Below, piece after piece: positions 3,093 to 24,772 of a stretch of DNA of 37,745 nt. This DNA comes from a virus. How positions within the stretch are numbered: the stretch's first letter is position 1; each line of letters starts with the position of its first letter. A program made the position numbers and the translations under genes. The notes beneath the pieces are model-generated. The model was not told the origin of the DNA. It worked only from the letters and a program-made list of their open reading frames with translations, and searched no databases. The stretch covers positions 1 to 37,745 of IMG/VR virus record IMGVR_UViG_3300017770_000047. One strand, written 5' to 3'.

Positions 3093-3120
3093 TATTCTTA
3101 AGGTATAGATATATCCTATC

Positions 3121-3136
3121 TAGGCTGTCAAGCCTA
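3121..3136. other. Small hairpin upstream of the late promoter
   Basis: TAGGCT and AGCCTA are perfectly complementary around a GTCA loop. It ends 10 bp before the -35 element of the late promoter, where an activator or repressor could bind. Confidence 0.5.
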
Positions 3137-3146
3137 AAATTAGGTA

Positions 3147-3172
3147 TTGACATAAATATATTATATTCTAAT
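3147..3172 (+). promoter_or_regulatory. Candidate late promoter upstream of the terminase genes
   Basis: A perfect -35 TTGACA (3147-3152) precedes the gene at 3181. The best -10 is TCTAAT (3167-3172), but at a short 14-bp spacing; TAATTT at 16 bp is an alternative. Either choice puts the transcript start at or within 2 nt of the ATG at 3181. The weak -10 and nearby palindromes suggest a regulated promoter. Confidence 0.5.
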
Positions 3173-3180
3173 TTGCAGAA

Positions 3181-5773: not shown

Positions 5774-5796
5774 TCTAAATGATAAAATATTAAATA

Positions 5797-7878: not shown

Positions 7879-7881
7879 CAT

Positions 7882-8103
7882 ATGACCCTACAAGAAGCAC
7901 TAGACTCATTAAGTCATCACGAAAGTTTTGGTTTGTTTATGCAGACTATATCAGATTTAAGAGAGGAGTCCATTGAGGCTCTTCATGACGCTGATTCAAA
8001 TAAAATTCAGCAAATAAGTGGTCAAATACTTAGCTATGACCAGATTTTACAAATGGCAGACTGGCGTTCATTACAGCGACGCTTTGGTTCTAATTTAAAT
8101 TAA
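7882..8103 (+). CDS. Small helical protein after the portal, unknown
   Basis: A 73-residue acidic, probably all-helical protein starting 3 bp after the portal stop. No motif is recognised. Small genes here in related podoviruses are often head accessory proteins. It ends just before the promoter for the capsid genes. Confidence 0.7.
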   Translation: MTLQEALDSLSHHESFGLFMQTISDLREESIEALHDADSNKIQQISGQILSYDQILQMADWRSLQRRFGSNLN

Positions 8104-8115
8104 ATTTGGACAGTA

Positions 8116-8124
8116 TGCTATAAT
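8116..8124 (+). promoter_or_regulatory. Extended -10 promoter for the capsid genes
   Basis: TGCTATAAT is a perfect extended -10 (TGnTATAAT). No good -35 is seen at the normal distance, which extended -10 promoters tolerate. Predicted start is near 8131, about 30 nt before the scaffold gene. It gives the scaffold, capsid and decoration genes their own transcription unit ending at the terminator 10787-10820. Confidence 0.65.
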
Positions 8125-8162
8125 ATACAAATCGCTATCGCTTGGCGTAAAAAGTGGATATT

Positions 8163-9245: not shown

Positions 9246-9256
9246 CCCATTAAATT

Positions 9257-10273
9257 ATGGCTATTACAGATACATTCAATCCAGCGTTACAACCAGTAAC
9301 GACTCAGGGTCCGAGTGCTTCTAATCGTGAGGACTTGACTGATGTCTTGACTATCCTCGCACCTGAAGAAACTCCAGCCCTTTCATCCGCTAACCGACAA
9401 GGAGCTAATGCTACTTTCGTTGAGTGGACCGTTGATTCCTTGTCTTCACCATCTACTGCTGGTGTAAGCGAAGGAGCAGATATAACCTCATTCACCGACC
9501 AGTTCGCAAGCCGTGCTCGTCTTGGTAACTATGTCCAGAAGTTCCGCAGGGACTTCATGGTATCCGATCTGCAAGAAGCAGTCGAATCCGTTGGACCAGC
9601 TAAAGTTGCTCAAGCAGAAGCTAAAGCTATCCGTGAACTTAAGCGTGACATTGAAGCAACTATACTTTCTGACAATGATCGTCAGGCTGAAAATGGTGCA
9701 GTTGCATACAAAATGCGTGGTCTTGGCGATTGGCTGGACTCAGCAGGTCCTTCAGATGTTCCTGCTGACTATCGTACTCCTGCCGCATCTATTGATGCAA
9801 ATGGTAGCAGTATCACAGAGTCCCAGTTCAACACCGTTATTCGTTCGATTTATCGTGCAAATGGTGAAGCTAACAACCTTGTTCTTATTGCTGACACTAG
9901 CCTTCGTCGTCAAATTGCTGACTTCGCTCGCTTTGGTGTTGATGTTGCTAATGGAACAAATGCTGGCGTTCGTTCAGTTAACTACGATGGCAATAGCTCA
10001 ACAATTAAGTTATCAGTAGAAGTTTACCAATCTGACTTTGGTATTGTTTCTATTATTAACATGAACCCAGAAACTAACCCAGAGACAGTTACTGGTGCTA
10101 GTGCTAATCACGATAGAGGTTATATGATTAACCCTGATTACTACGGCATTCACGAGCTAATCCCTATGGGTGCAAGTCGTCTACCTAACATGGGTGGTGG
10201 CGAGCGTGGTTTTGTTGACTGTGCATTGACACTTGGTGTTTATGCTCCAGCCGCACATGGTAAAATCTCATAA
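9257..10273 (+). CDS. Major capsid protein (SU10-like HK97 fold)
   Basis: A 338-residue shell protein. It resembles the SU10-type capsid family: RLGNYVQKFRRDFMVS (about 88-103), then AKAIRELKRDIEATILS (about 122-138) and a late NPDYYGIHELIPMG region. It sits between scaffold and decoration genes with its own promoter and terminator. Codon use differs from its neighbours: arginine is mostly CGT rather than AGA/AGG, as expected for the most highly expressed phage gene. No delta domain or leader cleavage signal is obvious. Confidence 0.88.
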   Translation: MAITDTFNPALQPVTTQGPSASNREDLTDVLTILAPEETPALSSANRQGANATFVEWTVDSLSSPSTAGVSEGADITSFTDQFASRARLGNYVQKFRRDFMVSDLQEAVESVGPAKVAQAEAKAIRELKRDIEATILSDNDRQAENGAVAYKMRGLGDWLDSAGPSDVPADYRTPAASIDANGSSITESQFNTVIRSIYRANGEANNLVLIADTSLRRQIADFARFGVDVANGTNAGVRSVNYDGNSSTIKLSVEVYQSDFGIVSIINMNPETNPETVTGASANHDRGYMINPDYYGIHELIPMGASRLPNMGGGERGFVDCALTLGVYAPAAHGKIS

Positions 10274-10293
10274 TTAAATAGGAGGAAAATATT

Positions 10294-10764
10294 ATGGCTA
10301 TTCAACTTAAAAAAGTTTCTAATTTAGAAACACTCGCTCTTGGATTTAACTACGAAGGCAGTATTGACATCGCAAATGATGTTCCTACTGGTGGAGCAGT
10401 TGACATTCAGTTTAACTCAGCAGAACTTGCAGGAACAGTAGGAAAAGTGGCTCTGGTCGTTGACCAACATGTTCCTGCCGATAATAGTGGTTCAACTGAT
10501 TACACAAGCTACAAAGTACAAGTAGGCGATACTGCAGACCCTAATGGTCAAATCGCTGATGTAGAGCTTTGCCCTGCAGGTACCGAAGCAGCAATAAACA
10601 CAATCTTCACCAGCACAGGTGATGATGCTTTTGGAACTGTTGTTAGCAATGTAGGTGCTACATTTGTTTCATTAAATGAAACTGATGAAGCATTAGCTAC
10701 TGCTGGTAAAGTTTCATTATTCTTCGAATATTATCCCACCGCAGGTGATAATTTTTCTGGATAA
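10294..10764 (+). CDS. Head decoration or minor head protein (putative)
   Basis: A 156-residue, acidic, beta-rich protein (GGAVDIQFNS, GKVALVVDQH, GKVSLFFEYY). It follows the capsid gene with one of the few strong ribosome sites in the window (AGGAGG, 8 nt before ATG) and is the last gene before a terminator, so it is probably made in large amounts. This fits a capsid-stabilising decoration protein. The family is not recognised with certainty. Confidence 0.7.
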   Translation: MAIQLKKVSNLETLALGFNYEGSIDIANDVPTGGAVDIQFNSAELAGTVGKVALVVDQHVPADNSGSTDYTSYKVQVGDTADPNGQIADVELCPAGTEAAINTIFTSTGDDAFGTVVSNVGATFVSLNETDEALATAGKVSLFFEYYPTAGDNFSG

Positions 10765-10786
10765 TTAGCATTATTGTTTATACTAT

Positions 10787-10820
10787 GGGGTGGTTGGGCT
10801 GATCTCAGCCACCCCTTTTT
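10787..10820 (+). terminator. Intrinsic terminator after the capsid genes
   Basis: GGGGTGG pairs with CCACCCC, enclosing a further CTG/CAG stem, and is followed by five T. It ends only 3 bp before the next start codon. Later genes must be reached by read-through. Confidence 0.85.
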
Positions 10821-10822
10821 AT

Positions 10823-11131
10823 ATGAATATATTACACTTCAAAGACACAACTCCTGACGAAGGAGCCACAAATAAAGCAACTGCCGCATTTATTAATAAA
10901 GCAATTATTAATGAAGCTTCTACGCAGAAAAGCAGAGAAGATATAGCCAGAAAAGAAGCTAGGCAAAACATTGGGAGGACTCACCCAACACTTGGTAAGT
11001 GCGTTGCAAACATACCAGCAAGAGAATACTTTAGATTAGTAGAAAAATATGGAAAAGATGTAGTTCTATCTAAAGAATTTTTACAATATTTTAATAAAAA
11101 ACATAGTGACCTTTCACCGAACAAGGCATGA
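10823..11131 (+). CDS. Small head-tail region protein, unknown
   Basis: A 102-residue basic protein, helical, with no motif I recognise. An earlier in-frame start at 10790 would lie inside the terminator stem, so the ATG at 10823 is chosen. It overlaps the next gene by 4 bp (ATGA). Position before the adaptor suggests a head-completion protein. Confidence 0.7.
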   Translation: MNILHFKDTTPDEGATNKATAAFINKAIINEASTQKSREDIARKEARQNIGRTHPTLGKCVANIPAREYFRLVEKYGKDVVLSKEFLQYFNKKHSDLSPNKA

Positions 11132-12138
11132 TATTAAGAAAAAACCAAGATTTATTTAACCTTGTAAGATCACTTGCTGGAGTAAATCAGTTTACATCTA
11201 ACGAAGTAACTAGCTTGGTTAATTTTACAAACAGGCGTTTAACTACCGCTTACAATACTAGCCAAATGTGGACTAGATATATAGTTCCAAGTGAAGAAAG
11301 AAAAGTTTCATCTTTTATTATTTCTGGGATAACAGATAGCAATGAATACAATATTCCATATACAAAATATGGAGATTTTACACATACTGGCACTCAAATA
11401 AGTAATGTTTTTGTTCCAAATAATCAAAGTGCATCTTCACAAACAACAACAATATTTTACAAAAATTCATCTTCTAAGTGGGTTTGGGGTTTAGCTACTT
11501 ATAGCAAAACAACAGCAGATGTAGTTACAATAGCTCCTAGCACCGTTTTTGCTACTCAACAAGACGCAGATGAATTTGAAAGCCCATCAAAAGTTCTTGA
11601 CTGGGGTTTACTCTCAACAAGAACTGGAAACTTAGTTATAACTAATTCAAGCATTATTACTTATGACGAAACATTTGATGTATTAAGTTCTGGTACTACA
11701 AGAGTTTCTAAAACAAGTATAGCTGGTTTTATAAGAGTACATAGAAAACAGGCATTTTTAAATAACTCCAGCACGGAATATGATTTTTTTGTAGATGAAA
11801 ATGGCGCAAATATTCTTAATAGTTCTATAACAAGTGGCACCGCATTTGTTACATATAAAAAACACATTATAGATACTTCAACGGGAGAAATAATTACATC
11901 TCTTGATATAAATGGATCTTCTGGTTCCCAACAAATACCACTTGAGTTTTTTAATTATACTGCTCATTCTGTTTTTGCTGACTTTTTAAGATTAGATGGT
12001 CAAACAGATAAAGCATTTGCGGAAGAGCAAATAGCACAAAACTTTTTAACAGAAGAGCTTGAAAAGGTTGATATAATAAATAACAGAAACTCGTTGAATC
12101 AAAAATTCTCAACATACATAAACACTTCATCACGATAA
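11128..12138 (+). CDS. Tail adaptor protein (T7 gp11-like, putative)
   Basis: A 336-residue protein likely to connect the portal to the tail nozzle. The N-terminal helical part (VNFTNRRLTTAYNTSQMWTR, about 32-51) and C-terminal helix (TAHSVFADFLRLDGQTDKAF) frame a beta-rich middle. That layout is typical of podovirus adaptor or tail tubular A proteins. Coupled by ATGA to the previous gene. The identification is by layout and gene order. Confidence 0.7.
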   Translation: MILRKNQDLFNLVRSLAGVNQFTSNEVTSLVNFTNRRLTTAYNTSQMWTRYIVPSEERKVSSFIISGITDSNEYNIPYTKYGDFTHTGTQISNVFVPNNQSASSQTTTIFYKNSSSKWVWGLATYSKTTADVVTIAPSTVFATQQDADEFESPSKVLDWGLLSTRTGNLVITNSSIITYDETFDVLSSGTTRVSKTSIAGFIRVHRKQAFLNNSSTEYDFFVDENGANILNSSITSGTAFVTYKKHIIDTSTGEIITSLDINGSSGSQQIPLEFFNYTAHSVFADFLRLDGQTDKAFAEEQIAQNFLTEELEKVDIINNRNSLNQKFSTYINTSSR

Positions 12139-12142
12139 TAAA

Positions 12143-12451
12143 ATGGCAAACTCAAATGTAGTAAACTTATACCCTGTTCCCACAAAAGGGGTCAATGACC
12201 AAACACTTACTGTATCGAACAGCGTAGTCCAATTATCTTCTTTTGATGAACTAACACGGTACATTGTTTTAGATGTTCAAGTAGCGGATGTAAGGGTAAC
12301 TTACGACGATTCTGCACCAACAGCCTCCAACGGACATATATTGTTTGCTGGTCGTTCTTATACTTGGGCTAAAGAAACAGCAGAAGCCGCTAAGTTCTTC
12401 AGAGACGGTAGTGCAGATGCTACAATTCATGCTTCTGAATTTACCCAGTAA
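12143..12451 (+). CDS. Small beta-rich structural protein, unknown
   Basis: A 102-residue protein with regular beta patterning (TLTVSNSVVQLSSF, RYIVLDVQVADVRVTYDD) and a GRSYTWAKETAEAAKF segment. It looks like the small jelly-roll proteins found among phage tail genes. It overlaps the adhesin gene by 1 bp (TAATG). No firm family. Confidence 0.7.
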   Translation: MANSNVVNLYPVPTKGVNDQTLTVSNSVVQLSSFDELTRYIVLDVQVADVRVTYDDSAPTASNGHILFAGRSYTWAKETAEAAKFFRDGSADATIHASEFTQ

Positions 12452-14697
12452 TGTCCTCAGAAATACTAGGCGGTGCACAGGATGTACTAAAAGGTAATCT
12501 AGGCGGTGCTTGGGATGTAAAGCATGGTTATGCTGATGCGTATACTGATTTAGGTATAGCTCGTAAATTTGGTGGAGCTGCGGCAGCTTATTCTCTTAGG
12601 GATATAGGAGCTATGAACGGACCAGTAGTTCGTGTTCGTAGAGAAAGCGACAATGCTGAAGCTGACTTTTCTGCATCAGGTGTTCCCTTTATAGCTGATT
12701 GGGTAAATAGGCAAACTGTAAAACCCCTAGATATTCAGGCGTTGAACTCTGGCGGTTCTGGTGTTCGTGATGGTGACTTCCAGATAGCAAGTGCGGCTTA
12801 TTCCTTAAGAAGTCTAGGTACAAGGCAGGCTACAGTATCGGCAACAGGAGATACAATTACTGCCGCTGACGGCAAGTATGTAGTACAGGTTCGTCGCTCT
12901 AGGGACAACACCATTAAGTCCTTTACCGCTGATGAGGTATCAGATGGTACTCTAGTGAGCTTTGTAACAGAGCCAAGTACTGGGTGGAATACACAACCAA
13001 CTTGGAATACTATAGCCCCATCAGGAACTATAAGGTCACAATCAAGTACCTCAAGCACTTCTACATTAACATTTTTTGCTTACGGAACAAGTCACACAAT
13101 ATCTGATAGCAGTAGACCAAGTCATATTCTTGTTAATGAAGGAGATGTTGTTGATATTAACTTAACAGTATCAAATATTCAAGGTGCTGCTAGTGTTGAA
13201 ATAAGAGACGCTGGTACGGATACTGCACTTGATAGTTCTTCAACTATAGCAAACGGAACTGTAGGTGCGTCCTTTACTGTTAATAGTAGCACAAGTGGCG
13301 GAGCGCACATTGTTTTTTCTTCCCTTGAGACTCCTTCAGATTTTAGCGATGGTACAATAACAATTAACTCAGTAACAGTAACTGGAAAGACTGGCTTTGT
13401 CCGCACTTGGTACGACCAAAGTGTAACTGACCAAGGTGGAGGTACAGCAACTGGTAATCACGCTATTCAGGCTACTGCCGCAGAACAACCCAAGATTGTA
13501 AGTTCTGGGGCTTTAATATTGCAGGACAGTAAGCCAACAATAAATTTTGATACATCTTCAAAGACTTTTGGATTTAGCTCATCCCTTGCACTTAGTACAA
13601 CATTTTCTTATTTTAATGTATTTAATCCAGAAGCAGATGCAAAAGTTCTTCACGCAGGTAGCTCACCACGGATTGATTTTGAAAATAGTAACCCAGATGA
13701 AGTAGAAATTGTTAGCAATAGTTTTGGTGGTAGCACCAAAATGAATTTATCAAAAAATGGATTCCTTAGTACTCAAAATTTATTTTCATTAATTAATGTC
13801 AGTACGGCTGTATCTGTATTTGATGGAGGCACAGCTTCTAGCGAAAACCCTAATACTGTTTCTGGTTCTTTTACTTTTACAACATTGGGAGGTGGTGCTG
13901 TTCAAAATCACCAAGAACTTATAGTATACGCCACCGACCAAACAGACAACAGGGGTGCATACGAAGGCAATATGGCGGACCACTACGGCATAACTGGTGT
14001 ACCTACTGGTGCTAATACTGTAAATGGTTTTGTTGAAACTTGGTATGACCAATCAGGTAATGGTAGGGATTCAACTCAAACTACTGCGGCAAGACAACCT
14101 ATTATTGTTGAATCAGGAACTTTTCAGGATGGGTTAAAGTTTACTCATACTGATACTACAAACGGAAAAAGGATGTATGTGCCTCGCAATACATCAGAGC
14201 TAGGAACTGAGTTTGCTCTTGTTTGGGTAGGCAAAATAACTCAGTCCGAAAGTGGAAATAGAACCTTACTCGGAGGAATTAGAAATGTTCAAGGTTATAA
14301 TGTTGGGTCGGTGGGAATAACAAATATTGCTAGTTCGCAATCTATAAGATTTACTAACGAAAAAACAACTACTTCACAACAAAATACAGATATTATAAGC
14401 TCTTCTTACACTATAAATGAAGATTTTGTTGCTTTTGCTAATTACGATGATGATGCAGTAACAGTTTCAGTTGATGATACTGTTCAAACATCGACATTTT
14501 CTAGTACAGTCCTAACTTCTACGGCTGACCTAAGAATAATGGCGGGTCAATTTGCATCTGGGGCAACAGGCGGTATTTATAGAACGCAAGAAAGTCCAAC
14601 TGGAATATGTAAAGAAGTATTGGTATATGATACTAATCAATCAGATAATCGTCCAGCCATAGTAACTAACATTAACAATAAATACTCACTATTCTAA
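12451..14697 (+). CDS. Adhesin/receptor-binding protein with arabinofuranosidase-B-like lectin modules
   Basis: A 748-residue protein. The motif AAYSLRDIGAMNG...VRVRRESDNAE (about 46-70) and a second AAYSLRSLGT...VQVRRSRDN, together with GFVRTWYDQS (about 312) and GFVETWYDQSGNGRDSTQ (about 526), are the hallmarks of the concanavalin-like fold seen at the start of GH54 arabinofuranosidases and reused in phage adhesins. The repeated WYDQS units imply two sugar-binding jelly rolls. I see no proven catalytic pair, so binding rather than cleavage is likelier. It probably recognises surface polysaccharide. Coupled by TAATG on both sides. Confidence 0.75.
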   Translation: MSSEILGGAQDVLKGNLGGAWDVKHGYADAYTDLGIARKFGGAAAAYSLRDIGAMNGPVVRVRRESDNAEADFSASGVPFIADWVNRQTVKPLDIQALNSGGSGVRDGDFQIASAAYSLRSLGTRQATVSATGDTITAADGKYVVQVRRSRDNTIKSFTADEVSDGTLVSFVTEPSTGWNTQPTWNTIAPSGTIRSQSSTSSTSTLTFFAYGTSHTISDSSRPSHILVNEGDVVDINLTVSNIQGAASVEIRDAGTDTALDSSSTIANGTVGASFTVNSSTSGGAHIVFSSLETPSDFSDGTITINSVTVTGKTGFVRTWYDQSVTDQGGGTATGNHAIQATAAEQPKIVSSGALILQDSKPTINFDTSSKTFGFSSSLALSTTFSYFNVFNPEADAKVLHAGSSPRIDFENSNPDEVEIVSNSFGGSTKMNLSKNGFLSTQNLFSLINVSTAVSVFDGGTASSENPNTVSGSFTFTTLGGGAVQNHQELIVYATDQTDNRGAYEGNMADHYGITGVPTGANTVNGFVETWYDQSGNGRDSTQTTAARQPIIVESGTFQDGLKFTHTDTTNGKRMYVPRNTSELGTEFALVWVGKITQSESGNRTLLGGIRNVQGYNVGSVGITNIASSQSIRFTNEKTTTSQQNTDIISSSYTINEDFVAFANYDDDAVTVSVDDTVQTSTFSSTVLTSTADLRIMAGQFASGATGGIYRTQESPTGICKEVLVYDTNQSDNRPAIVTNINNKYSLF

Positions 14698-14927
14698 TGC
14701 TGTACTTAATATACACAAATGAAGAGGATGCTAATGCTCGTGCTGACGAAGAGGGCAAGGAGCTTAACTTTGACTACTGGCGTGAAGACAACGGCATAGG
14801 CACACGATGGCTCACAGCACCTGTTCCTACAGCCGAAGGTGAGTGGGCATTAGATGTTACTGACTACGACTTAGACGAGCAAGAGCAAGCCTCTACAGTT
14901 AGTTCTTATAATCCTGTAACTGAATAA
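14697..14927 (+). CDS. Small acidic protein after the adhesin, unknown
   Basis: A 76-residue, very acidic protein rich in Glu, Asp and Trp. Its place right after an adhesin gene is where tail-fibre assembly chaperones often lie, but no motif supports that. Overlaps neighbours by 1 bp on each side. Confidence 0.7.
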   Translation: MLYLIYTNEEDANARADEEGKELNFDYWREDNGIGTRWLTAPVPTAEGEWALDVTDYDLDEQEQASTVSSYNPVTE

Positions 14928-15085
14928 TGATGGATAGTGTAATTAGAGGAACAGTAGGATCAACAGGGTTTTTTGCCTGTATGGAGCTACAAAGCGTTAA
15001 CACAGCAGTCAGCCTAGTTGTTGGGGTAGCTACCCTAATATTTCTAGGTCTTTCTATTTTTAAACTAATTAAGGAACTTAAATGA
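14927..15085 (+). CDS. Small single-span membrane protein
   Basis: A 52-residue protein (start MMDSVIRGTVGST). It has one clear membrane helix (SLVVGVATLIFLGLSIF, about 29-45) followed by a basic tail KLIKELK. It is coupled to both neighbours: TAATG with the gene before and ATGA with the holin after. Position suggests a holin partner, antiholin or pinholin-like protein. This is inferred from topology and context only. Confidence 0.7.
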   Translation: MMDSVIRGTVGSTGFFACMELQSVNTAVSLVVGVATLIFLGLSIFKLIKELK

Positions 15086-15486
15086 CCACAGAACTTATAG
15101 CTATGCTAGGTGGAGGAGCTTCTGGGTTCTTGTTCAAGTTGATTGGTACGATGGTTACTGCTCAACAGAACAATGTCTCTAACCTACTAAAGAAGCAGAA
15201 AGCCTCCGATGATAGTGCTGATGCTGCGGCTAAACGCACAGGGGACGGTGGTGCAATAGTAAGACGCATAATAGTAGTAACAGTTCTATTTGGTGTAATC
15301 ATAGCTCCCTTCATCCTAGCTCACAGCGATGAGGGAGTAACAGTAGCTAATGAATACAGCAAGTGGTTTGGCTTTGTTAAGGGCACAACTTACCAGACCT
15401 TGCATGGGTATGTTATACTACCAGAGATACGCCAAACAGTTCTAGCCATAGTAGGCTTCTACTTTGGTTCTTCCTCAGTCAAATAA
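15082..15486 (+). CDS. Holin, three-transmembrane type
   Basis: A 134-residue membrane protein. Three hydrophobic stretches are seen: about 5-24 (IAMLGGGASGFLFKLIGTM), about 60-80 (RIIVVTVLFGVIIAPFILA) and about 118-132 (TVLAIVGFYFG). They are separated by a charged KKQKASDD loop. Length and layout match the 3TM holin family of gene transfer agents and marine phages. It would form membrane lesions that let the cell-wall hydrolase (35020-35436) reach its target. It lies inside the structural operon, far from that hydrolase. Confidence 0.8.
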   Translation: MTTELIAMLGGGASGFLFKLIGTMVTAQQNNVSNLLKKQKASDDSADAAAKRTGDGGAIVRRIIVVTVLFGVIIAPFILAHSDEGVTVANEYSKWFGFVKGTTYQTLHGYVILPEIRQTVLAIVGFYFGSSSVK

Positions 15487-15487
15487 T

Positions 15488-15706
15488 ATGGATAAATGTA
15501 CTATATGTAAAAAAGCAAAGGATGTTTGTTCTTTTTGCTTACCGATTCAATGGATTACAAAAATGCTAAAGAAAAGCTCTCTGAGCTCCGTGACAGCCTT
15601 AATGAGGTCTTGGGTAGTAAAAGTGAAGGACCAAGCAGGAAAGACGCTGAGGAGGCTCTCAAGGCGGCTAAAGACGGTTCTAGGCGGGCTAAAAAAACAC
15701 TTCTAG
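15488..15706 (+). CDS. Small CxxC-CxxC protein overlapping the next gene
   Basis: A possible 72-residue protein starting 1 bp after the holin stop. The N-terminus, MDKCTICKKAKDVCSFC, has two CxxC pairs able to bind zinc. The remaining 48 residues are very basic and share DNA, in another frame, with the gene at 15550. The last codons before its stop include seven A (15691-15697) in the frame of a classic -1 slippery site, so ribosomes could shift into the longer frame and make a fusion. Both the stand-alone and frameshifted products are inference. Confidence 0.45.
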   Translation: MDKCTICKKAKDVCSFCLPIQWITKMLKKSSLSSVTALMRSWVVKVKDQAGKTLRRLSRRLKTVLGGLKKHF

Positions 15707-16341
15707 GTAAAATTAAAGATTTACCTGTAGTTGACAAAATAGCTCAACTTGGAACAGCTGGAACAGTTGCTGTAAGTACTGCGGCTGTTACTCAGACCAA
15801 TATAGCAGTAGATGAAACTGAAGTATTTGTAGCAAGTGTAGCTAACGATGTAGTACACGAAAGACTAAGATTTCCTGAAGTAATAGACAATTTTATTGAT
15901 TTTAGTGCCTTAGATTCTTGGGGAAGAGAGGTAATGAAAGAAAAGGTAGCTCAAGTAAAAGAAGAAGTAGCTAAAGTAGAGTCCAAGGTAGCACCTGCTG
16001 AAGAAAAAGAAATTAAGAAGGAATCACAACCCTCCAATAAAACCAAGAGTAAGGAACCACAAGCCCAAGAAGAAAGTGCTGATAACACCGATAAAAACGC
16101 AGGAAGTACAGAGGAAACTAAACAAGAGGTAGAGGAGGTTGAGGGCGAAGAGGTAGAAAATGAAGAAGTAAAAGAGTCACAGGTAGAAGAAATAGCAGAA
16201 CCCGTACCAGAGGAGGATATTATTGAAGAAGTTGATGAAATCAAGCCGCACTCAGATTTAAAAAGTAATGAGCCAGAACAGCCATCAATATTACCAGACG
16301 AATCAATGGTAGTTTCTCCATCTGGACCAAGACAGGTATGA
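15550..16341 (+). CDS. Acidic-tailed protein of the lysis-like group, unknown
   Basis: About 263 residues. The N-terminal 60 residues are charged and helical. About 64-85 (IAQLGTAGTVAVSTAAVTQT) is mildly hydrophobic and may be a membrane or hairpin helix. The second half is extremely rich in Glu, Lys, Gln and Ser (KEKVAQVKEEVAKVESKV, then EEVEGEEVENEEVKE) and is likely extended or coiled. No known domain. ATG at 15550 is preferred over a TTG at 15526. It overlaps the CxxC reading frame by 157 bp and the following gene by ATGA. A spanin-like role is possible but there is no lipobox. Confidence 0.75.
   Translation: MDYKNAKEKLSELRDSLNEVLGSKSEGPSRKDAEEALKAAKDGSRRAKKTLLGKIKDLPVVDKIAQLGTAGTVAVSTAAVTQTNIAVDETEVFVASVANDVVHERLRFPEVIDNFIDFSALDSWGREVMKEKVAQVKEEVAKVESKVAPAEEKEIKKESQPSNKTKSKEPQAQEESADNTDKNAGSTEETKQEVEEVEGEEVENEEVKESQVEEIAEPVPEEDIIEEVDEIKPHSDLKSNEPEQPSILPDESMVVSPSGPRQV
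15691..15697 (+). promoter_or_regulatory. Candidate -1 frameshift site
   Basis: A AAA AAA in the frame of the 15488 gene, three codons before that frame's stop (15704-15706). A -1 shift here enters exactly the frame of the 15550 gene. No downstream pseudoknot was checked. Confidence 0.35.
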
Positions 16342-16502
16342 TACAATATATAATAGATAATTACAAAGAAAATTTGCTGGGTATGTTATTTGCATACATA
16401 GGAATATTTTCTATTGTGGTTATGTTCTTACCAAAGAATAATATAATATCCAGAGCCTTTAAGGAGTTCGCATCAATATGTACATCTATTTTCAAAAAAT
16501 AA
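16338..16502 (+). CDS. Small single-span membrane protein
   Basis: A 54-residue protein starting MIQYIIDNYKENLL. It has one membrane helix (MLFAYIGIFSIVVMFL, about 16-31) and a basic C-terminus ending FKK. It overlaps the previous gene by 4 bp (ATGA) and the PEP-CTERM gene by 25 bp, so it is tightly packed between them. Role unknown. It may belong with the holin group or assist the exported protein that follows. Confidence 0.7.
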   Translation: MIQYIIDNYKENLLGMLFAYIGIFSIVVMFLPKNNIISRAFKEFASICTSIFKK

Positions 16503-17095
16503 AATTTTTATTAGCACCATTGCTATTCGCATCTATTGCATGGAGTGCTGTGCAGTTAAATAGCGTAGTATATGACTTAGAGGTAGAAATTGATAATACT
16601 TATAGTGTACCTAATTTTAACCCAGAAGGTGGAGTAACTTACTATAATCCAATGATATTTACTACTTCGGTTGGTGGACAATATATATTTGATAATTATG
16701 CAAGCGAACTAACAGGCGGAACACAGGATACATCCCTTCTTATATACGATAACCTAGAGGCTAATTTTATAGTTGATCAACCGTTAATATTTAATGATGG
16801 TCCTAGCATAGGCTTCGGAGGAGGACAGTTAAGTACCTTTGACGGCTTTGAGAGGCACGAAGAGCCATTTAACGGAACAATAAGCCTATCTGCTAATACT
16901 ACTTATGCGGCTGTATTTTCTTCTTTTTCACCAGATGCTATAGGAGTTATGCAAGTAAAGTTAACTGCACCAGCACAAATATACAGCACGGATTTAGTTG
17001 CAATACCAGAACCAAGGGACACGGGTTTACTAATAGCAATAATCATAGCATTTTTTGTAGCATTCAGCTATATGAAAATAAGGAGCGAAATGTAG
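16478..17095 (+). CDS. Exported protein with PEP-CTERM-type sorting signal
   Basis: A 205-residue protein with both ends marked for the cell envelope. The N-terminus is a standard signal peptide: basic QKIK, hydrophobic LLAPLLFASIAWS, likely cleavage near A23. The middle is a beta-rich domain with GGQYIFDNYASEL and DTSLLIYDN, like host surface proteins. The C-terminus has IPEP (176-179), a hydrophobic helix GLLIAIIIAFFVAF, then K and R: the three-part PEP-CTERM signal read by exosortase. Phage copies of this signal are unexpected. It could be a surface-altering or exclusion factor, or a virion part matured by the host. It sits between small membrane genes and a basic-protein cluster. Confidence 0.7.
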   Translation: MYIYFQKIKFLLAPLLFASIAWSAVQLNSVVYDLEVEIDNTYSVPNFNPEGGVTYYNPMIFTTSVGGQYIFDNYASELTGGTQDTSLLIYDNLEANFIVDQPLIFNDGPSIGFGGGQLSTFDGFERHEEPFNGTISLSANTTYAAVFSSFSPDAIGVMQVKLTAPAQIYSTDLVAIPEPRDTGLLIAIIIAFFVAFSYMKIRSEM

Positions 17096-17338
17096 ATGCC
17101 AGAATTTAAAGGAAGTCAAATGAGTTTTAATTTATTGCCTGCAGGCAGAGTAGCAAAGGGCATTGCAAAAGGTGCATCCAGCGTTATTGGAGCTGTATCA
17201 AAAAGAAAAGCCGCTGATACTACAAGAAAAGTAGATGTAGAAAAATTACTAAAGGAAGCTTTTAGTGGTCCAGACAAAAGAACTGCGGCTCAAAAGAAAG
17301 CTGCTGATTCTTATTTTAAAAAAACTTTTAAACCCTAA
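17096..17338 (+). CDS. Small basic protein, unknown
   Basis: An 80-residue lysine/alanine-rich protein starting directly after the previous stop. A short hydrophobic/amphipathic region (LLPAGRVAKGIAKGASSVIG) precedes charged helices. It is the first of five consecutive small basic genes (17096-18096). No family known to me. Confidence 0.7.
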   Translation: MPEFKGSQMSFNLLPAGRVAKGIAKGASSVIGAVSKRKAADTTRKVDVEKLLKEAFSGPDKRTAAQKKAADSYFKKTFKP

Positions 17339-17364
17339 ATAATAACTAATAACCCAACAATATT

Positions 17365-17451
17365 ATGCCAAAAGGTAAAGGTACATACGGAACAACTAGA
17401 GGTCGCCCACCCAAAAAAAATAAAATGGGTAAACGAGGAAAGTGTAAATAA
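17365..17451 (+). CDS. Very small Gly/Lys/Arg-rich protein
   Basis: A 28-residue peptide beginning MPKGKGTYGTTRGRPPKKNK, with no acidic residue. Its RGRPPKK segment is like an AT-hook, a minor-groove DNA binding motif. It is coupled to the next gene by TAATG. Short proteins starting MPKGKGTYG are, from memory, recurrent in marine phages. It may bind packaged DNA. Confidence 0.6.
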   Translation: MPKGKGTYGTTRGRPPKKNKMGKRGKCK

Positions 17452-17621
17452 TGCCAAAGAAAGCAAAAAGCGGAGGTAAGATATGCCCAGAAGGTAAAGC
17501 TTGGGCTAGGCGTACATTTGATACTTACCCAAGTGCATATGCTAACATGGCGGCATCTAAGTACTGCAAAAACCCTAACTATGCAAAGAAGTCAAAAGGT
17601 GGTAAACGCAAGGGCAGATAA
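17451..17621 (+). CDS. Small basic two-cysteine protein
   Basis: A 56-residue protein with core GGKICPEGKAWARRTFDTYP and SAYANMAASKYCKNPNY between lysine-rich ends. The two cysteines and the pattern are, from memory, shared by small proteins of marine phages. Coupled by TAATG on both sides in the basic-protein cluster. Function unknown; nucleic-acid binding is likely from charge. Confidence 0.65.
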   Translation: MPKKAKSGGKICPEGKAWARRTFDTYPSAYANMAASKYCKNPNYAKKSKGGKRKGR

Positions 17622-17860
17622 TGGGACAACTCAAACAATGGAGAGAGCAGAACTGGGTACGCATAGGAACTGATGGGAAGATCAAAGGACCTTGCGGAAC
17701 TTCTAAAGATAAAAAGAATCCTGACCGATGTCTGCCTAAAAGAAAGGCTCTTAGCCTATCGCAAGCAGAAAGAGCAAAAACTGCTAGAAAAAAGAAAAAA
17801 GCAGGATCCAAGGGAAAAACAGTTGTAGCAAATACTAAAAAAGCAAAAGTAAGAAGTTAA
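17621..17860 (+). CDS. Small basic protein, phage/large-virus type
   Basis: A 79-residue protein with WVRIGTDGKIKGPCGTSKD (about 12-30), then NPDRCLPKRKALSLSQAERA and a lysine-rich tail. It looks like a small domain found in aquatic phages and large DNA viruses, whose role is unknown. The two cysteines may bind metal. Coupled by TAATG before and after. Confidence 0.7.
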   Translation: MGQLKQWREQNWVRIGTDGKIKGPCGTSKDKKNPDRCLPKRKALSLSQAERAKTARKKKKAGSKGKTVVANTKKAKVRS

Positions 17861-18096
17861 TGAGAAAAGAACACAAAAGTAAAAAAGGTGGTCTTACTGC
17901 GGCTGGCAGAGCTTACTTCAAGCGTAAAACTGGTGCTAACCTAAAGCCTCCAGTTACAGAAAATAATCCCAAAGGTAAAAACAAAGCTCGTAAAAAATCT
18001 TTTTGTGCTCGTATGTCAGGAGTTAAAGGTCCAATGAAGGACAAAAAAGGTAGACCAACTAGAAAAGCTTTAGCGTTACGACGCTGGAAATGTTAA
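17860..18096 (+). CDS. Small basic protein (DUF6321-like)
   Basis: A 78-residue protein, strongly basic, with KKGGLTAAGRAYFKRKTGAN (9-28), KSFCARMSGVKGPMKDKKG and an ARG/LYS-rich end finishing RRWKC. The pattern matches, from memory, a domain of unknown function (DUF6321) shared by phages and large viruses. It is last of the basic cluster, 3 bp before the nozzle gene. DNA condensation in the virion is a reasonable guess. Confidence 0.7.
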   Translation: MRKEHKSKKGGLTAAGRAYFKRKTGANLKPPVTENNPKGKNKARKKSFCARMSGVKGPMKDKKGRPTRKALALRRWKC

Positions 18097-18099
18097 TTA

Positions 18100-20322
18100 A
18101 TGTCAAGGTACTCAACATATGGTCGCTTAGATAATCGCATTGAAAAAGAAGGCGATGTGGGTTTTGTTGGATTTAATAATCGCTTGCGTCCTGATCAATT
18201 ACAATCTGGTTTACTTGCTGATGCTCAAAATATTAGAATAGATAGAAATGGGCAAGCACAAGTAAGAAAAGGCATTGATCTAATAACTAACCCATTAGTT
18301 GCTGGTTCTTCCGCATTAATTCTTCCATTTTATTTAGTTGCTAATGATACATCAGTTACTGTAAATAGAAATAATAGCGGAGAAGTAGTTATTACTAATG
18401 TTAATGCCGCTAATTTTTCTACAAATGGAACAGTTAATATAACTGATGTTACGGGTCTTAACCCAGTAGTAAATGGAGATAGACCGTTTACCAAGAATAG
18501 TGATACACAAATTACTATTTCTGATCAATCATATAGTGGAACTGCTGGTGGAACAGCTACAGTTAAATTTGGTATTATTAATAATGATGCAGTAGAATCT
18601 ATATATGGATCATGCTCATTTTCAGACCCAAATTCTGCTGGTAGTCAATATATAATTTTTGCTTCAAATGGAAAAGCAATAGCTATAAATATTGAAACAC
18701 TTGTTTCAACAGATATTGTATATCCAACTGGATTTAATATTTCTGAAGAAGCTTCAATGATTCAAGCTTTTAACAAAGTATTTATATTTAGAAATGGTAA
18801 AGAAGCATTAGAATGGAATGGTTCATTTAGTGGTACTCCAGCTTTTACAAAAGTACAAAGTGGCACATATTCACAACCAGCTTTACTTACAACCCCATCT
18901 AGTGGTTTCTCTATAGCTAATAACATTGCAACCGTTGATTTAGGATCAACCGCACATAATTTATTAGAAGGAGATATAATTAAAATATTATCATCTAGTA
19001 ATAGTACTTTGACGGAAGGAGATACTTTTGTTGTAGCAACAATTGTTGACGCAAATGAATTTAAGTTTTTTGTTACTGCCGATAATTTAAGTGCTGCTAG
19101 TAACATAACTCCAAGGTTTTCAAGAAGTGCATCAGTAGGAATGGGGTTTACCCATATGCCAGCACCACCATTTGCTGTGTACCACCAAAGAAGGCTATTT
19201 ATGCCTTTTAATTTTACTGTAGATTCTGGTTTAGCAAATCAAGGAACATTTACATCAAGAGGAATACTAGATGAAGTTATTGGTTCAAGAGTACTTGATA
19301 CTAATACATACGATCAATTTGCTTCTCAATTTAGATTTAATGCAGGTACATCTGATTTTGTTGTAGGAATGCACTCATTTACTGATGATAGCTTAATTGT
19401 ATTTAATAGAAATAGTATACATTTAATTCAAAATACTACAAGTCTTGGATCATCTAGCAATAAATTACTGACTGACGAAATTGGATGCGTAGCAAGAGAA
19501 TCAATAGAGCAAGTAGGAAATAGGATTCTTTTTCTTTCGGACAATGGAGTATATGGAACTGAGTTCTTGGATGAGTACAACCTTAGGGGAACTCAAATTC
19601 CACTAAGTGAGCCAATAAATTCAACAATTGAAAGAATTAATAAAAATGCTAAATCTAAATCTGTTTCTGTTTATTTTGACAATAGATATTATTTAGCAGT
19701 ACCATTAGATACCTCAAGTAAAAATAATGCTATATTAATTTATAATTTTCTTAACAATCAATGGGAAAGTATTGACTCAGTCAAAAGCACAAATTTTAAT
19801 ATTAGTAATATGTTTGTTGTTGGCGAAGGAGATTCAAGGGGAATATATATAATAAATGACTTAGGTGGTATTTTTAGATTAGATGCTCGTAATGATGATA
19901 AAGATACTATTGTTTCTCAAATTGGCGGAGCACAAGAAAATATTATTATTCCAGCATCAATAACAACAAGACAATATACTGTAAAAAGTCTTGATAGAAA
20001 AAAATGGAGGGATTTTGACTTTCATGTTCAATCAAGTGATGTTAATGTATCTGACTTTGATATTGTGGTTGAAACAGAAAATCCAGATTCTAGTGATGTT
20101 TTAGGAAAACTTTCTGATTACAATACCCCAAAAGAAACAGAAGAAATCTCTACTGACGGAAAACTAGATATTGGAGAGGATGTATCCATCCGTGGTAGAA
20201 TAGGTAATAGGAGAGGTTACGGAATACAATTTACAATTAATAATACAATAGGCAGACCCATGATACGAGCAATAGAAGTAGAGGGTTCAACGGCTATGAG
20301 ATCAACAGATAAAGCAATATAA
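18100..20322 (+). CDS. Tail nozzle protein (beta-propeller, T7 gp12-like)
   Basis: A 740-residue protein expected to form the lower tail channel. It starts with a conserved-looking segment (FVGFNNRLRPDQLQSGLLAD, then NIRIDRNGQAQVRKGI) and has repeated beta-strand patterns with propeller-like blades such as FTDDSLIVFNRNSIHLIQN and FLSDNGVYGTEF. Gene order (adaptor, nozzle, fibre, ejection proteins) and size agree with the tail tubular B/nozzle family. Overlaps the fibre gene by TAATG. Confidence 0.78.
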   Translation: MSRYSTYGRLDNRIEKEGDVGFVGFNNRLRPDQLQSGLLADAQNIRIDRNGQAQVRKGIDLITNPLVAGSSALILPFYLVANDTSVTVNRNNSGEVVITNVNAANFSTNGTVNITDVTGLNPVVNGDRPFTKNSDTQITISDQSYSGTAGGTATVKFGIINNDAVESIYGSCSFSDPNSAGSQYIIFASNGKAIAINIETLVSTDIVYPTGFNISEEASMIQAFNKVFIFRNGKEALEWNGSFSGTPAFTKVQSGTYSQPALLTTPSSGFSIANNIATVDLGSTAHNLLEGDIIKILSSSNSTLTEGDTFVVATIVDANEFKFFVTADNLSAASNITPRFSRSASVGMGFTHMPAPPFAVYHQRRLFMPFNFTVDSGLANQGTFTSRGILDEVIGSRVLDTNTYDQFASQFRFNAGTSDFVVGMHSFTDDSLIVFNRNSIHLIQNTTSLGSSSNKLLTDEIGCVARESIEQVGNRILFLSDNGVYGTEFLDEYNLRGTQIPLSEPINSTIERINKNAKSKSVSVYFDNRYYLAVPLDTSSKNNAILIYNFLNNQWESIDSVKSTNFNISNMFVVGEGDSRGIYIINDLGGIFRLDARNDDKDTIVSQIGGAQENIIIPASITTRQYTVKSLDRKKWRDFDFHVQSSDVNVSDFDIVVETENPDSSDVLGKLSDYNTPKETEEISTDGKLDIGEDVSIRGRIGNRRGYGIQFTINNTIGRPMIRAIEVEGSTAMRSTDKAI

Positions 20323-22415
20323 TGGCTATAATTACAACAACTCAACAATTTGCTGAAGGTAATCAAGTTACTGCGGCAACATTAAATAATATTACTAATA
20401 ATGCTACGTTTGTTAGTACGGTAGTAGATGGTGTTACGACTGCATTGGATTCTGTTAGTGGTGTAGCAAATTCAAAAATTATAGTTAGAGATGGAGGTAT
20501 AACAAAAGAAAAACTTAATTTAACTGCAACTGGTGTTTCTCAAAACATAGCTGTTTTCAAAGCAGTACAAACAATTTCAGGTACTGAAACTGACCGATCA
20601 CTAAATATAAGGACTCCAGCCAGTACAACCGACGCTAACTCCCCCTTTGAAATTGAGACAGGCAATGCATTTAAATTTATAGTTGATGATCATACAGTTA
20701 CCATTAATTCCGATGGTAAAACAATATTTGGAAATGGCAGTATAGCTACTCCTTCATCTCAAGTAAATATAAATACTGACGATAATTTAGGAAGCACATC
20801 AGGAGACACGCAATCAATACTTGCATTATCTGAAACAGCAGGAAGTAATCTTGATAATTTACTTTTTACCTCACAAAGAACTGCTAATGGTTCTGATTTT
20901 TCAACAGCTGCCCATAGAATCCAAAGAAAAGTTGATAGCACCAAAATGGGTTACATTCAATTTGGGCATCATAGTGCAACAAATGGTAACACTATAACTT
21001 TTGGAGAAGATGAAACTGAGCGTATGCGTATTGACGCAGAGGGTCAAGTAGGCATTGGAACTACTAGCCCAAGTCACAAACTAGAGGTTAATGGAGACAT
21101 ACTTATAGACAATGGCGGTGCTGATGGAGGGCAGTTAGTACTTGCTTCTCAAGGATTTGATAGTATGCAGATTGACAACGAGCGTGGTAGTTTTAGAGTT
21201 GTTAATCAAGCTGGAGTTGGAACTGAATTGTTTACAGTTTCAGCGAGCGGTAACGTAGGCATTGGAAGTGTTGACCCAAGTTGTGCCTTAGATGTTACTG
21301 GGGAAATAAAATCATCAGACGACATAAGGTCTGGGTCTAGTGGAAAATTTATTAGCACACATTCTTCGGGCAAAGAAGTTAATTTATATCACGGTGCTGA
21401 TTACGGAGTAGTGGGTACTACGGGTGATACTAAAATGGCTGTCAGAACAAATGGTTCTGATAAACTTACTGTTTTAAGTGATGGCAACGTAGGTATTGGA
21501 ATTATTGATCCAGATGAATTATTAACAGTTCATGGTTCTTCTAATCCAAAAATACACATTAGAAATAGTGAAGAAGATGATGCTGGAATTAAGTTTTCTG
21601 ATGATGAAGATGTATCTGGTCAACATTTTGAGATATTACATAATTCTAATAATACTCATGATTTACGCATTAAAAGTAATAGTACGAACAACATACTGTT
21701 CTTAAAAGCAGACGGTAATGTAGGAATTGGAACTGATAATCCTTCTAATAAACTTCAGGTTGCTGGAACTTTAAGAGCAACTGGCAATGTTGACTTTGAC
21801 TCAAACCTAAATGTTGATGGCAATGCACAAATTGATGGCAATGCACAAATTGATGGTAATGCACAAATTGATGGCAATGTTACGATTAATGGCACTTTTG
21901 GTTTTAATTCAGGTACATCAGTAACTGCAATTGAAACAGATGGTACATTAGGCGGTAATAGTGACAACGTTTTACCAACAGAAAAAGCAATAAAAACTTA
22001 TGTTGATGCTGAAGCAGCAACCGCTAGATCTGAAGCAATCGCCTATGCCGCTTACTATTCTGCTTTTACTCCTTCGTCTGGAGCTACTGGGACTATTAAC
22101 TTTACACAAAGTTATCAAGACCTTGATTTGTCTACTGCTATAGGGGACACCGTAAAGGCTATAGTGCATATGGAAATAAGTGATGGTCACGACAATCGTG
22201 ATGTATTTTTTAGAACTAAAGGCTCTAGCGTAATACCTTATTTTGGTGGTAATGATTCAGGATGGGGTTCTGCTGGGGGTGTTGTAGGAACGAGCAATAA
22301 AGGAATTAGTATTTGTATTGTTACTGACTCCAATGGAGTAGTTGAACACAGGGCAGCACAAAATATTAATAATGCTAGTTATACAATAAGAAGCGTTCAA
22401 AGAATGGTGCCATAA
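20322..22415 (+). CDS. Tail fibre protein with GIGT repeats
   Basis: A 697-residue trimeric-fibre-like protein. At least four copies of a NVGIGTxxPSxKLxVxG repeat occur (about residues 240-495), a stalk motif common in phage fibres. A triple GNAQID repeat (about 500-520) follows, then LGGNSDNVLPTEKAIKTYVD (about 544-563), the usual hinge before a C-terminal tip. The last 130 residues, aromatic and glycine-rich, are probably the receptor-contact tip. No intramolecular chaperone motif was recognised. Confidence 0.82.
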   Translation: MAIITTTQQFAEGNQVTAATLNNITNNATFVSTVVDGVTTALDSVSGVANSKIIVRDGGITKEKLNLTATGVSQNIAVFKAVQTISGTETDRSLNIRTPASTTDANSPFEIETGNAFKFIVDDHTVTINSDGKTIFGNGSIATPSSQVNINTDDNLGSTSGDTQSILALSETAGSNLDNLLFTSQRTANGSDFSTAAHRIQRKVDSTKMGYIQFGHHSATNGNTITFGEDETERMRIDAEGQVGIGTTSPSHKLEVNGDILIDNGGADGGQLVLASQGFDSMQIDNERGSFRVVNQAGVGTELFTVSASGNVGIGSVDPSCALDVTGEIKSSDDIRSGSSGKFISTHSSGKEVNLYHGADYGVVGTTGDTKMAVRTNGSDKLTVLSDGNVGIGIIDPDELLTVHGSSNPKIHIRNSEEDDAGIKFSDDEDVSGQHFEILHNSNNTHDLRIKSNSTNNILFLKADGNVGIGTDNPSNKLQVAGTLRATGNVDFDSNLNVDGNAQIDGNAQIDGNAQIDGNVTINGTFGFNSGTSVTAIETDGTLGGNSDNVLPTEKAIKTYVDAEAATARSEAIAYAAYYSAFTPSSGATGTINFTQSYQDLDLSTAIGDTVKAIVHMEISDGHDNRDVFFRTKGSSVIPYFGGNDSGWGSAGGVVGTSNKGISICIVTDSNGVVEHRAAQNINNASYTIRSVQRMVP
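21816..21887 (+). repeat. 18-bp tandem repeat inside the tail fibre gene
   Basis: GATGGCAATGCACAAATT occurs three times head to tail (one copy with one substitution), followed by a diverged fourth. It encodes the repeating hexapeptide DGNAQI. Copy number could vary by slippage and change stalk length. Confidence 0.9.
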
Positions 22416-22903
22416 TGTATACAAATCGTTTACTTCAATCAGTACAAGTAGCCCTTGAGAATAAAACTCAAAGAAGTGCTATATTGGCTATGGATGAGGT
22501 TGCGGATTACTGCATAAAAAATGTAAACGAAAAATTATTTAAAGATTGGAGCCAAGAAATGATACGCCTTATGGTAGCTTACCATTGGGCAAAAAAAACA
22601 TTAATTGTTAGTTACGATGAAGGTAACCATGTTAATGGTTTATTTATGTGGTATAATTGTAATGAGGACGATGGATGGGATTTTATAACTAATTGGGAAG
22701 AAGATAAAGAAGATGGAGACGCTATATTCCTAGCATTTATATCTGCTGATAGTATGGACATTGTAAAAGAAAATATGAATCGTTTTGTTTCTATGCAACC
22801 TGATCTATTGTCAAAAAAATTAATTGCTTTTCGTTTAAAAAATGGAATTCATACTAAAATGAACTACAATAACAGAATATTTAAAAAAATACTAAAAAGT
22901 TAA
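22415..22903 (+). CDS. Protein between fibre and ejection genes, unknown
   Basis: A 162-residue protein with mixed alpha/beta character. MWYNCNEDDGWDFITNWEED (about 77-96) and FISADS (107-112), then SKKLIAFRLKNGIH near the C-terminus, look like an enzyme or assembly fold. An acyltransferase (GNAT or HlyC-like) is one possibility because such genes occur next to podovirus ejection proteins, but no diagnostic motif is visible. Coupled to the fibre gene by TAATG. Confidence 0.65.
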   Translation: MYTNRLLQSVQVALENKTQRSAILAMDEVADYCIKNVNEKLFKDWSQEMIRLMVAYHWAKKTLIVSYDEGNHVNGLFMWYNCNEDDGWDFITNWEEDKEDGDAIFLAFISADSMDIVKENMNRFVSMQPDLLSKKLIAFRLKNGIHTKMNYNNRIFKKILKS

Positions 22904-22906
22904 ATT

Positions 22907-24772
22907 ATGGGATCACCATCAACACCTCCACCCCCTGAACCATTTGATGCGGCAAAAGCCACAGGAGAATATTTCTTTGGACAAGACTTTAGTGATTTTG
23001 ATGGTATTCTTGATGACAGGTTACAGCAAAGATTTATTGATGCTGAAAGAAAGTATGGACCTGAATATGCAGACATTCAGTTAAATAATATCCGCACTAT
23101 GGCGGAAGGAACTGATGGAGACGGTGGAATATTTGGTATTTTAAGAGATGAAGCAGTAAAATCAGGAGATTTACAGAGGTCAGAATTAGGTAAACAAAGA
23201 GCAGATGATTTAACTGCTGTTCAACAGTTAGCTCCTCAAATTGTTGATGCTTTTAGGGGTGCTGACGAAGAAAGCACAGCTATAGCTGAAACCGCTGACA
23301 AAAGAATTGGTCAAGGTACTGGTATTGGGGCATTAGGACAAAATTTAATTGGAAGTCAGTTAGGTGCGGCAGGAGCAGAAGAACAAGCAATAAGGCAAAG
23401 AGGATTAGCAGATATTACTGCTGGTCGTGAGGCGGCTAGTGCAACTGAACAAGCATTACAATCACAAGGTTTTTCTAATTTAAATGCTCAACGAGAAGGT
23501 GCCAGCACAGGAGAACAAGCATTACAAGCTCAAGGATTAGCTGGTTTAGGTTCTCAGGTAGCAGGTGCTAGTTCAGCAGAACAACAACTACAAGCTTTGG
23601 CAATGAGCCAAAGTGCTCTTGGTTCAACACCACAAGAAGCACTTCTTGCACAACAAGGCATGGAAGGCTTACAATCAACTGGTGAGCTTTCAGCACTAGA
23701 AAACATAAGACTTACTGATTCAATAAGAGAAGGTTCTTTAGCGAGAGGTAGGGAAATGGATACTAGCTCTATAGCCGCTGAAGCTAGGGGTCGCTTTTCT
23801 GAAGAGTTAAATAAAAAAGAAAGAGAAAGAGCAATTGGTTCTCAGTTACTTGGTCAGAGTGATCAAATGCGTCAACAAAGGTTATCTCAAGGTGCTAGTG
23901 CTCTTACTGGCGTAGATGCTCTTTCTGCACAACGCAGAGCCGAACAAATGCAAAGGCAACAATTTGGTGCACAGAATATAGGCGCAACAGAAGCTTTTGC
24001 GGCTCAACGAAGGGCTGAACAAATGCAAAGGCAAGGATTCGGTGCACAAAGTTTAGGTCAAGTTAGCAGTATAGAAGCTCAACGAAGAGCAGAAGAAATG
24101 GCAAGACAAGGTATGGGTACTCAAACATTGGGTGCATCCGCTGGTCTTTCAGCACAGAGAAGGGCTGAACTAATTCGTCAACAACAACTAGGAGCAGGAT
24201 TAGTAGGAGCTGAAGATAGCATACAGTCAGGTCGTTTAGGTCAGGCTTTTCAGATGAATAGAAACCTAGCAGGGGATCTTGGTTCTACTATACTTGGAAG
24301 ACCTTCTCAATCTATACCACTAGGTCAAAGTATTTTGGGTTCTGCTACACAGGGAGCAAATAATCTTGGAGGTCAACTATTTGATCAAAATGCAGGAATT
24401 AATATAGGTCTTCAACAAAGAGGACAAGATTTAAATTATCAATCAGCTGTATACGAAGGACAATCTGGAGCATTTGGAGGATTGATGAGTGGATTAGGAA
24501 CTGCAGTTGGAGGTGCAATGGGAGGTCCATTTGGAGCTGCTTTAGGAGGACAACTATTTGGGGGAGGTTCTCCCACTTGTTGGGTAGCTCGTGAAGTTTA
24601 TGGTGAAGATAATCCAAAATGGTTACTATTTAGAAACTGGATGTTATGCGATGCTCCTACTTGGTTTAGAAATATATATATTAAATATGGAGAACGCTTT
24701 GCTAAATTTATATCTAATAAACCTTTATTAAAAAATATTATTCGTTCATGGATGAATAAAAAAATTAAATAA
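22907..24772 (+). CDS. Internal virion/ejection protein A, Gln/Ala-rich
   Basis: A 621-residue protein starting with a proline stretch (MGSPSTPPPPEPFD). The centre is rich in Gln, Ala, Gly and Arg, with imperfect repeats of about 24 residues carrying AQRRAEQMQRQ (about 340-430). A glycine-zipper region (GTAVGGAMGGPFGAALGG, about 530-548) could insert in membranes. The C-terminus (CWVAREVYGEDNPKWLLFRN, then WMLCDAPTWFRN) is a compact aromatic cap, like the end domain on other phage virion proteins. Likely ejected into the host to extend the tail channel. Confidence 0.72.
   Translation: MGSPSTPPPPEPFDAAKATGEYFFGQDFSDFDGILDDRLQQRFIDAERKYGPEYADIQLNNIRTMAEGTDGDGGIFGILRDEAVKSGDLQRSELGKQRADDLTAVQQLAPQIVDAFRGADEESTAIAETADKRIGQGTGIGALGQNLIGSQLGAAGAEEQAIRQRGLADITAGREAASATEQALQSQGFSNLNAQREGASTGEQALQAQGLAGLGSQVAGASSAEQQLQALAMSQSALGSTPQEALLAQQGMEGLQSTGELSALENIRLTDSIREGSLARGREMDTSSIAAEARGRFSEELNKKERERAIGSQLLGQSDQMRQQRLSQGASALTGVDALSAQRRAEQMQRQQFGAQNIGATEAFAAQRRAEQMQRQGFGAQSLGQVSSIEAQRRAEEMARQGMGTQTLGASAGLSAQRRAELIRQQQLGAGLVGAEDSIQSGRLGQAFQMNRNLAGDLGSTILGRPSQSIPLGQSILGSATQGANNLGGQLFDQNAGINIGLQQRGQDLNYQSAVYEGQSGAFGGLMSGLGTAVGGAMGGPFGAALGGQLFGGGSPTCWVAREVYGEDNPKWLLFRNWMLCDAPTWFRNIYIKYGERFAKFISNKPLLKNIIRSWMNKKIK

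Follow-up and report, generated by a model that had tools for sequence, protein, structure and literature searches.

Does a phage encode a protein with an exosortase-type sorting tail? The question is raised by one gene of the window, i.e., the whole 37,745-nucleotide stretch of viral DNA analysed here. What is known of exosortases comes mainly from host genomics, and a literature search found no description of a phage-encoded PEP-CTERM protein or exosortase. The finding of interest is a swappable PEP-CTERM tail borne by sister phages; the tail of the window protein is a diverged member of that tail family.

The 205-residue protein and its family

The ORF was confirmed from its ATG at 16478 to a stop codon ending at 17095, and its start shares 25 nt with an upstream ORF encoding a 54-residue protein, p54 (Table 1). 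A sequence-only reading had described a signal peptide, an IPEP motif, a hydrophobic helix and a basic end in the order expected of a PEP-CTERM protein. These features were found in that order, the first as a signal-peptide-like N-terminus, with two caveats: the family conserves IPE rather than the full IPEP, and the end is only weakly basic. The N-terminus, MYIYFQKIKFLLAPLLFASIAWSA, is basic and hydrophobic with a cleavage-like site (A-W-S/A-W-G), lacks Cys, and forms a helix in the AF2 model (residues 2-27); inspection showed a similar N-terminus throughout the family. The C-terminal hydrophobic stretch covers residues ~181-203 (maximum Kyte-Doolittle 19-mer mean 2.29) and ends in KIRSEM. 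A TM helix followed by a basic cluster, as expected in PEP-CTERM proteins, is thus found here with a weak cluster (KIRS; in the family KIR or KIK plus S).

Table 1 Features of the 205-residue protein gene and its upstream neighbours in the window
Feature	Coordinates	Strand	Basis or remarks
134-aa multi-TM holin-like protein	15082..15486	+	phrog_38283 (unknown function); also in cassette-less relatives, e.g. C75C1
72-aa cationic CxxC small ORF, out of frame over p271	15488..15706	+	28 distinct similar sequences
p271: N-terminus basic, followed by a weakly hydrophobic stretch and a long acidic linker; KPHS-type motif conserved at the C-terminus	15526..16341	+	
p54: 54-aa single-TM protein, cationic amphipathic C-terminus	16338..16502	+	Conserved upstream of PEP-tail gene
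205-aa membrane protein gene	16478..17095	+	Signal-peptide-like N-terminus, beta-sandwich ectodomain (low-confidence model), IPEP + TM + KIRS tail; 27-member family
Signal-peptide-like N-terminus, residues 1-24	16478..16549	+	Sequence; QK[IV]K core and W22 conserved (alignment A3)
IPEP motif codons, residues 176-179	17003..17014	+	IPE invariant in 27/27 family members
TM helix and short basic end, residues 180-205	17015..17092	+	Hydropathy; helix 182-204 in AF2 model

The ectodomain (residues 25-175) contains no Cys, has a net charge of -16 and is 24.5% S+T+N; an acidic, S/T/N-rich and Cys-free ectodomain matches what PMC1569441 reports on the composition of PEP-CTERM proteins. The AF2 model (mean pLDDT 64) presented it as a low-confidence beta-sandwich. 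Foldseek gave no match at E 0.001 with this model, and VIA gave a best Z of 8.3 with assorted beta-sandwiches, which may reflect just a common arrangement; these structural matches seem too generic for naming a ligand.

The family comprises 27 aligned members from IMG/VR contigs, the others being 59-86% identical to the window protein and sharing its architecture, and the gene appears to be conserved as a protein. No relative was found among 50,697 GenBank phages or in cellular genome contigs (pattern search), and a weak search of the candidate host order (373 genomes, E 0.01), run without a positive control, gave none either. The genome searches argue against a cellular origin of the ectodomain, the 373-genome search weakly so. 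The fourth motif residue varies: IPEP in 7 members, IPEL in 10, IPEM in 9 and IPEV in one, with at least six changes on an ectodomain tree in which only a few branches are well supported. The near-invariant Pro-Glu-Pro of PEP-CTERM proteins is therefore found in only 7 of the 27, the window protein among them, the second Pro missing from the other 20.

Judged alone, the window tail is a marginal case. The PEP-CTERM HMM comparison suggested by the sequence-only reading went against it: neither the whole protein nor its last 40 residues matched TIGR02595 or PF07589 up to E 10. With an HMM of 30 tails of PEP-CTERM proteins from the Opitutae order (host-tail HMM) it scored 8.1 bits, and it is marginal because this lies between the 95th percentile (6.6) and the maximum (16.7) of 2,700 motif-keeping shuffles; IPEL members of the family were at background. 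Profile A2, made from the window-family tails, had C-termini of host PEP-CTERM proteins as its best six matches in the same 373 genomes (best E 1.5e-4), a search run without a shuffled-profile comparison in an order where such proteins are abundant.

Tails of sister phages in the same slot

In sister phages the same two genes upstream are followed, after p54, by a gene for an unrelated protein of 89-122 residues starting with MSHE, which has no relatives among GenBank phages. MSHE proteins lack a signal peptide, are acidic in their N-part (net charge -8 to -15) and carry VPEP or IPEP, downstream of which several different sequence types were found. All but one of the 37 members retain PEP, the exception (L217) having IPEQ. 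In alignment A7, 25 of the 28 invariant columns lie upstream of PEP; a structural model was poor except for the TM helix.

The best MSHE tail, VPEPSTYALLAGFAVLIFTMIKRRNK, is canonical and lies above both curated cut-offs (TIGR02595, 21.4 bits, cut-off 16; PF07589, 21.8 bits, cut-off 20.7). Each model matched four of the five scanned members, and L194 exceeded both cut-offs. Over 50 records of the lineage, TIGR02595 matched 17 at E 0.05, one match each and 8 above the cut-off; the matches inspected were the MSHE gene, and none of 14 control genomes matched at E 0.05. With the E limit relaxed to 1 or 10, this model also matches unrelated control genomes, so we put weight only on passes of the cut-off and on matches in the same slot. 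Nine of the ten best loci in a search with the MSHE profile were C-termini of host PEP-CTERM proteins. The search among relatives gave the sequence-only reading partial support: tails at the same genomic slot exceed the curated cut-offs. About 97% of PEP-CTERM proteins have a signal peptide (PMC1569441); MSHE proteins have none, so their access to exosortase would require translocation of the N-tail independent of a signal peptide.

In two MSHE proteins, those of L233 (4151-4516) and L234 (2204-2548), a C-terminal extension was seen beyond the TM helix; that of L233 holds a CxxCK motif resembling the one in the small ORF at 15488-15706. The p54 of these two loci is the most divergent (44-46%), a hint that tail and p54 vary together.

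The MSHE ectodomain occurs with several tails. L236 and L246 are identical in 205 of 207 nt up to CCAGAGCCA, i.e., the PEP codons, followed by ~250 nt without alignment; they are the single clear swap pair, the other pairs examined being less close. Tails thus appear to have been exchanged between phage proteins precisely at the PEP codons, and such junctions are natural evidence for the tail working as a unit. One of these tails, type 3 (VPEPADAGFIGAVLVGIFVAFCYFKNKK), and the window-family tail are homologous: all 27 family tails scored 22-40 bits with the tail-type-3 HMM, against a maximum of 13.7 among 5,400 IPE-keeping shuffles. Type 3 scores low with the host-tail HMM (about 4-13 bits), which shows that this tail branch has departed from the canonical signal. 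Because the window tail is homologous to type 3, which is swapped for canonical tails at the motif, it belongs to a PEP-CTERM-derived tail family, as a diverged member in whose branch the motif has partly decayed. The earlier claim of an exosortase-type tail on a phage protein therefore stands as to origin, on the sister-phage slot and the tail homology, although the window protein fails its own HMM test and its sorting by exosortase is uncertain given the diverged motif.

Membrane cassette and candidate host

An ORF for p54 lies upstream in 27 of 27 aligned loci of the 205-residue family (BLAST) and in 36 of 37 MSHE loci; the remaining MSHE sequence ends 38 nt upstream. The overlap with the PEP-tail gene is 25 nt in the 16 family loci resolved by a pattern script, which missed the other 11, and 4 nt in 30 MSHE loci. 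Wherever the contig extends far enough, p271 precedes both genes; it matched no family and had no relative among GenBank phages. In relatives without a detected p54 (e.g. C75C1) the PEP-tail protein was not found either, some of these contigs being incomplete. In this order, p271, p54 and the PEP-tail protein form a conserved phage membrane cassette.

Several further genes were observed. ORFs similar to that at 15488-15706 (28 distinct sequences at this place) have 59-72 residues, a net charge of +10 to +18, an N-terminal CxxCK motif and a basic amphipathic end; the putative product may be a lysis peptide, or the ORF may merely follow from the p271 frame. Four small basic proteins, partly conserved in C75C1, are encoded in a run at 17096-18096 (+), after the PEP-tail gene and before p740. 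An endolysin-type hydrolase with a signal-peptide-like N-terminus (phrog_938) is located at 35020-35436 (-), far from the holin-like gene and on the opposite strand. Amidoligase_2 at 1747-2760 (-) and a GATase-GGACT fusion at 36866-37723 (-), both annotated in C75C1 too, are possibly a gamma-glutamyl modification pair.

The lineage of the window phage had at least 200 terminase matches in IMG/VR. A pattern scan of 84,980 genomes revealed a single terminase relative, 63% identical, on a contig of the metagenome-assembled genome (MAG) of an uncultured Opitutae (Verrucomicrobia). This MAG had two exosortases over the cut-off and 17 PEP-CTERM matches, and PEP-CTERM was over the cut-off in 40 of 41 genomes of its family. 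The host link is this one contig, which may be mis-binned, and a 63% relative need not share its host with the window phage; judging from it, these uncultured marine phages probably infect exosortase-bearing Verrucomicrobia (Opitutae). The only host lead thus agrees with the exosortase-bearing host expected earlier. The CRISPR check gave nothing: positions 3100-23000 of the window had no spacer match in the 373 genomes, the short matches lying outside repeat arrays.

Proposed role, alternatives and known systems

Starting from the observed architecture, operon, tail homology and swap, sister-tail models and candidate-host exosortases, we infer a mechanism in which host, topology, cleavage and function are the conditional parts. 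The 205-residue protein would cross the inner membrane N-out and C-in and remain anchored there through its C-terminal helix. With the C-terminus in the cytoplasm, as the positive-inside rule predicts, the IPE(P) motif would lie on the periplasmic side of the membrane, the proposed location of the exosortase active site (PMC1569441). The tail would descend from a PEP-CTERM module that phage proteins exchange at the PEP codons. Canonical members are likely to be processed: the host exosortase would cut the tail and the ectodomain would move towards the outer surface. In the window branch, the diverged tail would be read by a divergent exosortase or retained as a plain anchor, and we give about even odds to processing of the window protein. 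Since the gene sits among late genes beside a holin-like gene, the cassette may act on the host envelope late in infection, supporting lysis or closing the surface to superinfection; this position points to an envelope/lysis or surface-exclusion module. We favour this whole proposal, i.e., a phage cassette with a swappable PEP-CTERM-derived tail, diverged in the window, that acts late on the envelope, with moderate confidence.

A wider generalization is tentative, and we would call it conceivable rather than probable: that Verrucomicrobia phages encode their own exosortase substrates in an envelope cassette and swap tails at the PEP codons to fit the exosortase of the current host, some of these substrates crossing the membrane without a signal peptide. 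Very few phages of marine Verrucomicrobia have been isolated; the observations suggest how such phages handle a PEP-CTERM-coated envelope, and the phage tails offer a small natural set of variable substrates for testing which tail residues matter.

The failure of the PEP models on the window tail, the background scores of IPEL tails with the host-tail HMM, the loss of the second Pro in 20 of 27 members through at least six changes, the weak basic end and the holin-like and single-TM neighbours would all suit an ordinary bitopic inner-membrane protein, with a signal peptide, a beta-sandwich in the periplasm, a plain C-terminal TM anchor and no exosortase, engaged in spanin-like lysis or in a periplasmic block of superinfecting DNA. 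This reading concerns the window protein, not necessarily its sisters, and deserves serious consideration, although we think it falls short of probable: IPE is invariant in all 27 members while adjoining residues vary, the tail shares homology with a type that replaces canonical PEP-CTERM tails at the motif, and the lack of Cys leaves no u-spanin lipobox.

The retention of IPE beside a variable fourth residue, together with the short MSHE proteins, their small ectodomains and swappable tails, could also suggest an exosortase decoy or inhibitor late in infection, in which forms without the second Pro bind uncut and host PEP-CTERM proteins accumulate in the envelope. No direct evidence speaks for such a role, and the strong conservation of the MSHE ectodomain (25 invariant columns upstream of PEP) would be needless for a pure decoy; we consider it unlikely. 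A chance occurrence of IPEP ahead of an unrelated TM helix would fit the lack of an HMM match for the window tail alone, but is highly improbable given the invariant IPE; we rejected it on the tail homology to swapped PEP tails and the conservation of a slot that has curated-model matches.

Among known systems, the closest GenBank phage is C75C1 (OQ984151; terminase 72%, major head protein 64%), which has a similar gene order and a homolog of the holin-like gene, but has neither p271 nor p54, nor a PEP-tail protein of any kind. Unimolecular spanins (u-spanins), e.g. T1 gp11, combine an N-terminal lipobox Cys with a C-terminal TM segment. The window protein resembles them in its envelope-side beta-rich ectodomain, C-terminal TM helix and nearby holin-like gene; it differs in a tail family that carries PEP and in having no lipobox Cys and hence no outer-membrane lipid anchor. 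With 0 Cys in the N-terminus or residues 25-175, we rejected its identity as a u-spanin. Relative to the PEP-CTERM/EpsH-exosortase system, the gene is phage-encoded and sits in an operon of several genes instead of forming a single-gene unit, its tail fails the models, the second Pro is not conserved in the family, and the sister MSHE proteins have no signal peptide. It nevertheless shares with that system the order of motif, TM helix and basic end, the signal-peptide-like N-terminus and the Cys-free, acidic, S/T/N-rich ectodomain, and its sister phages carry tails above the curated cut-offs in a lineage whose candidate host encodes exosortases.
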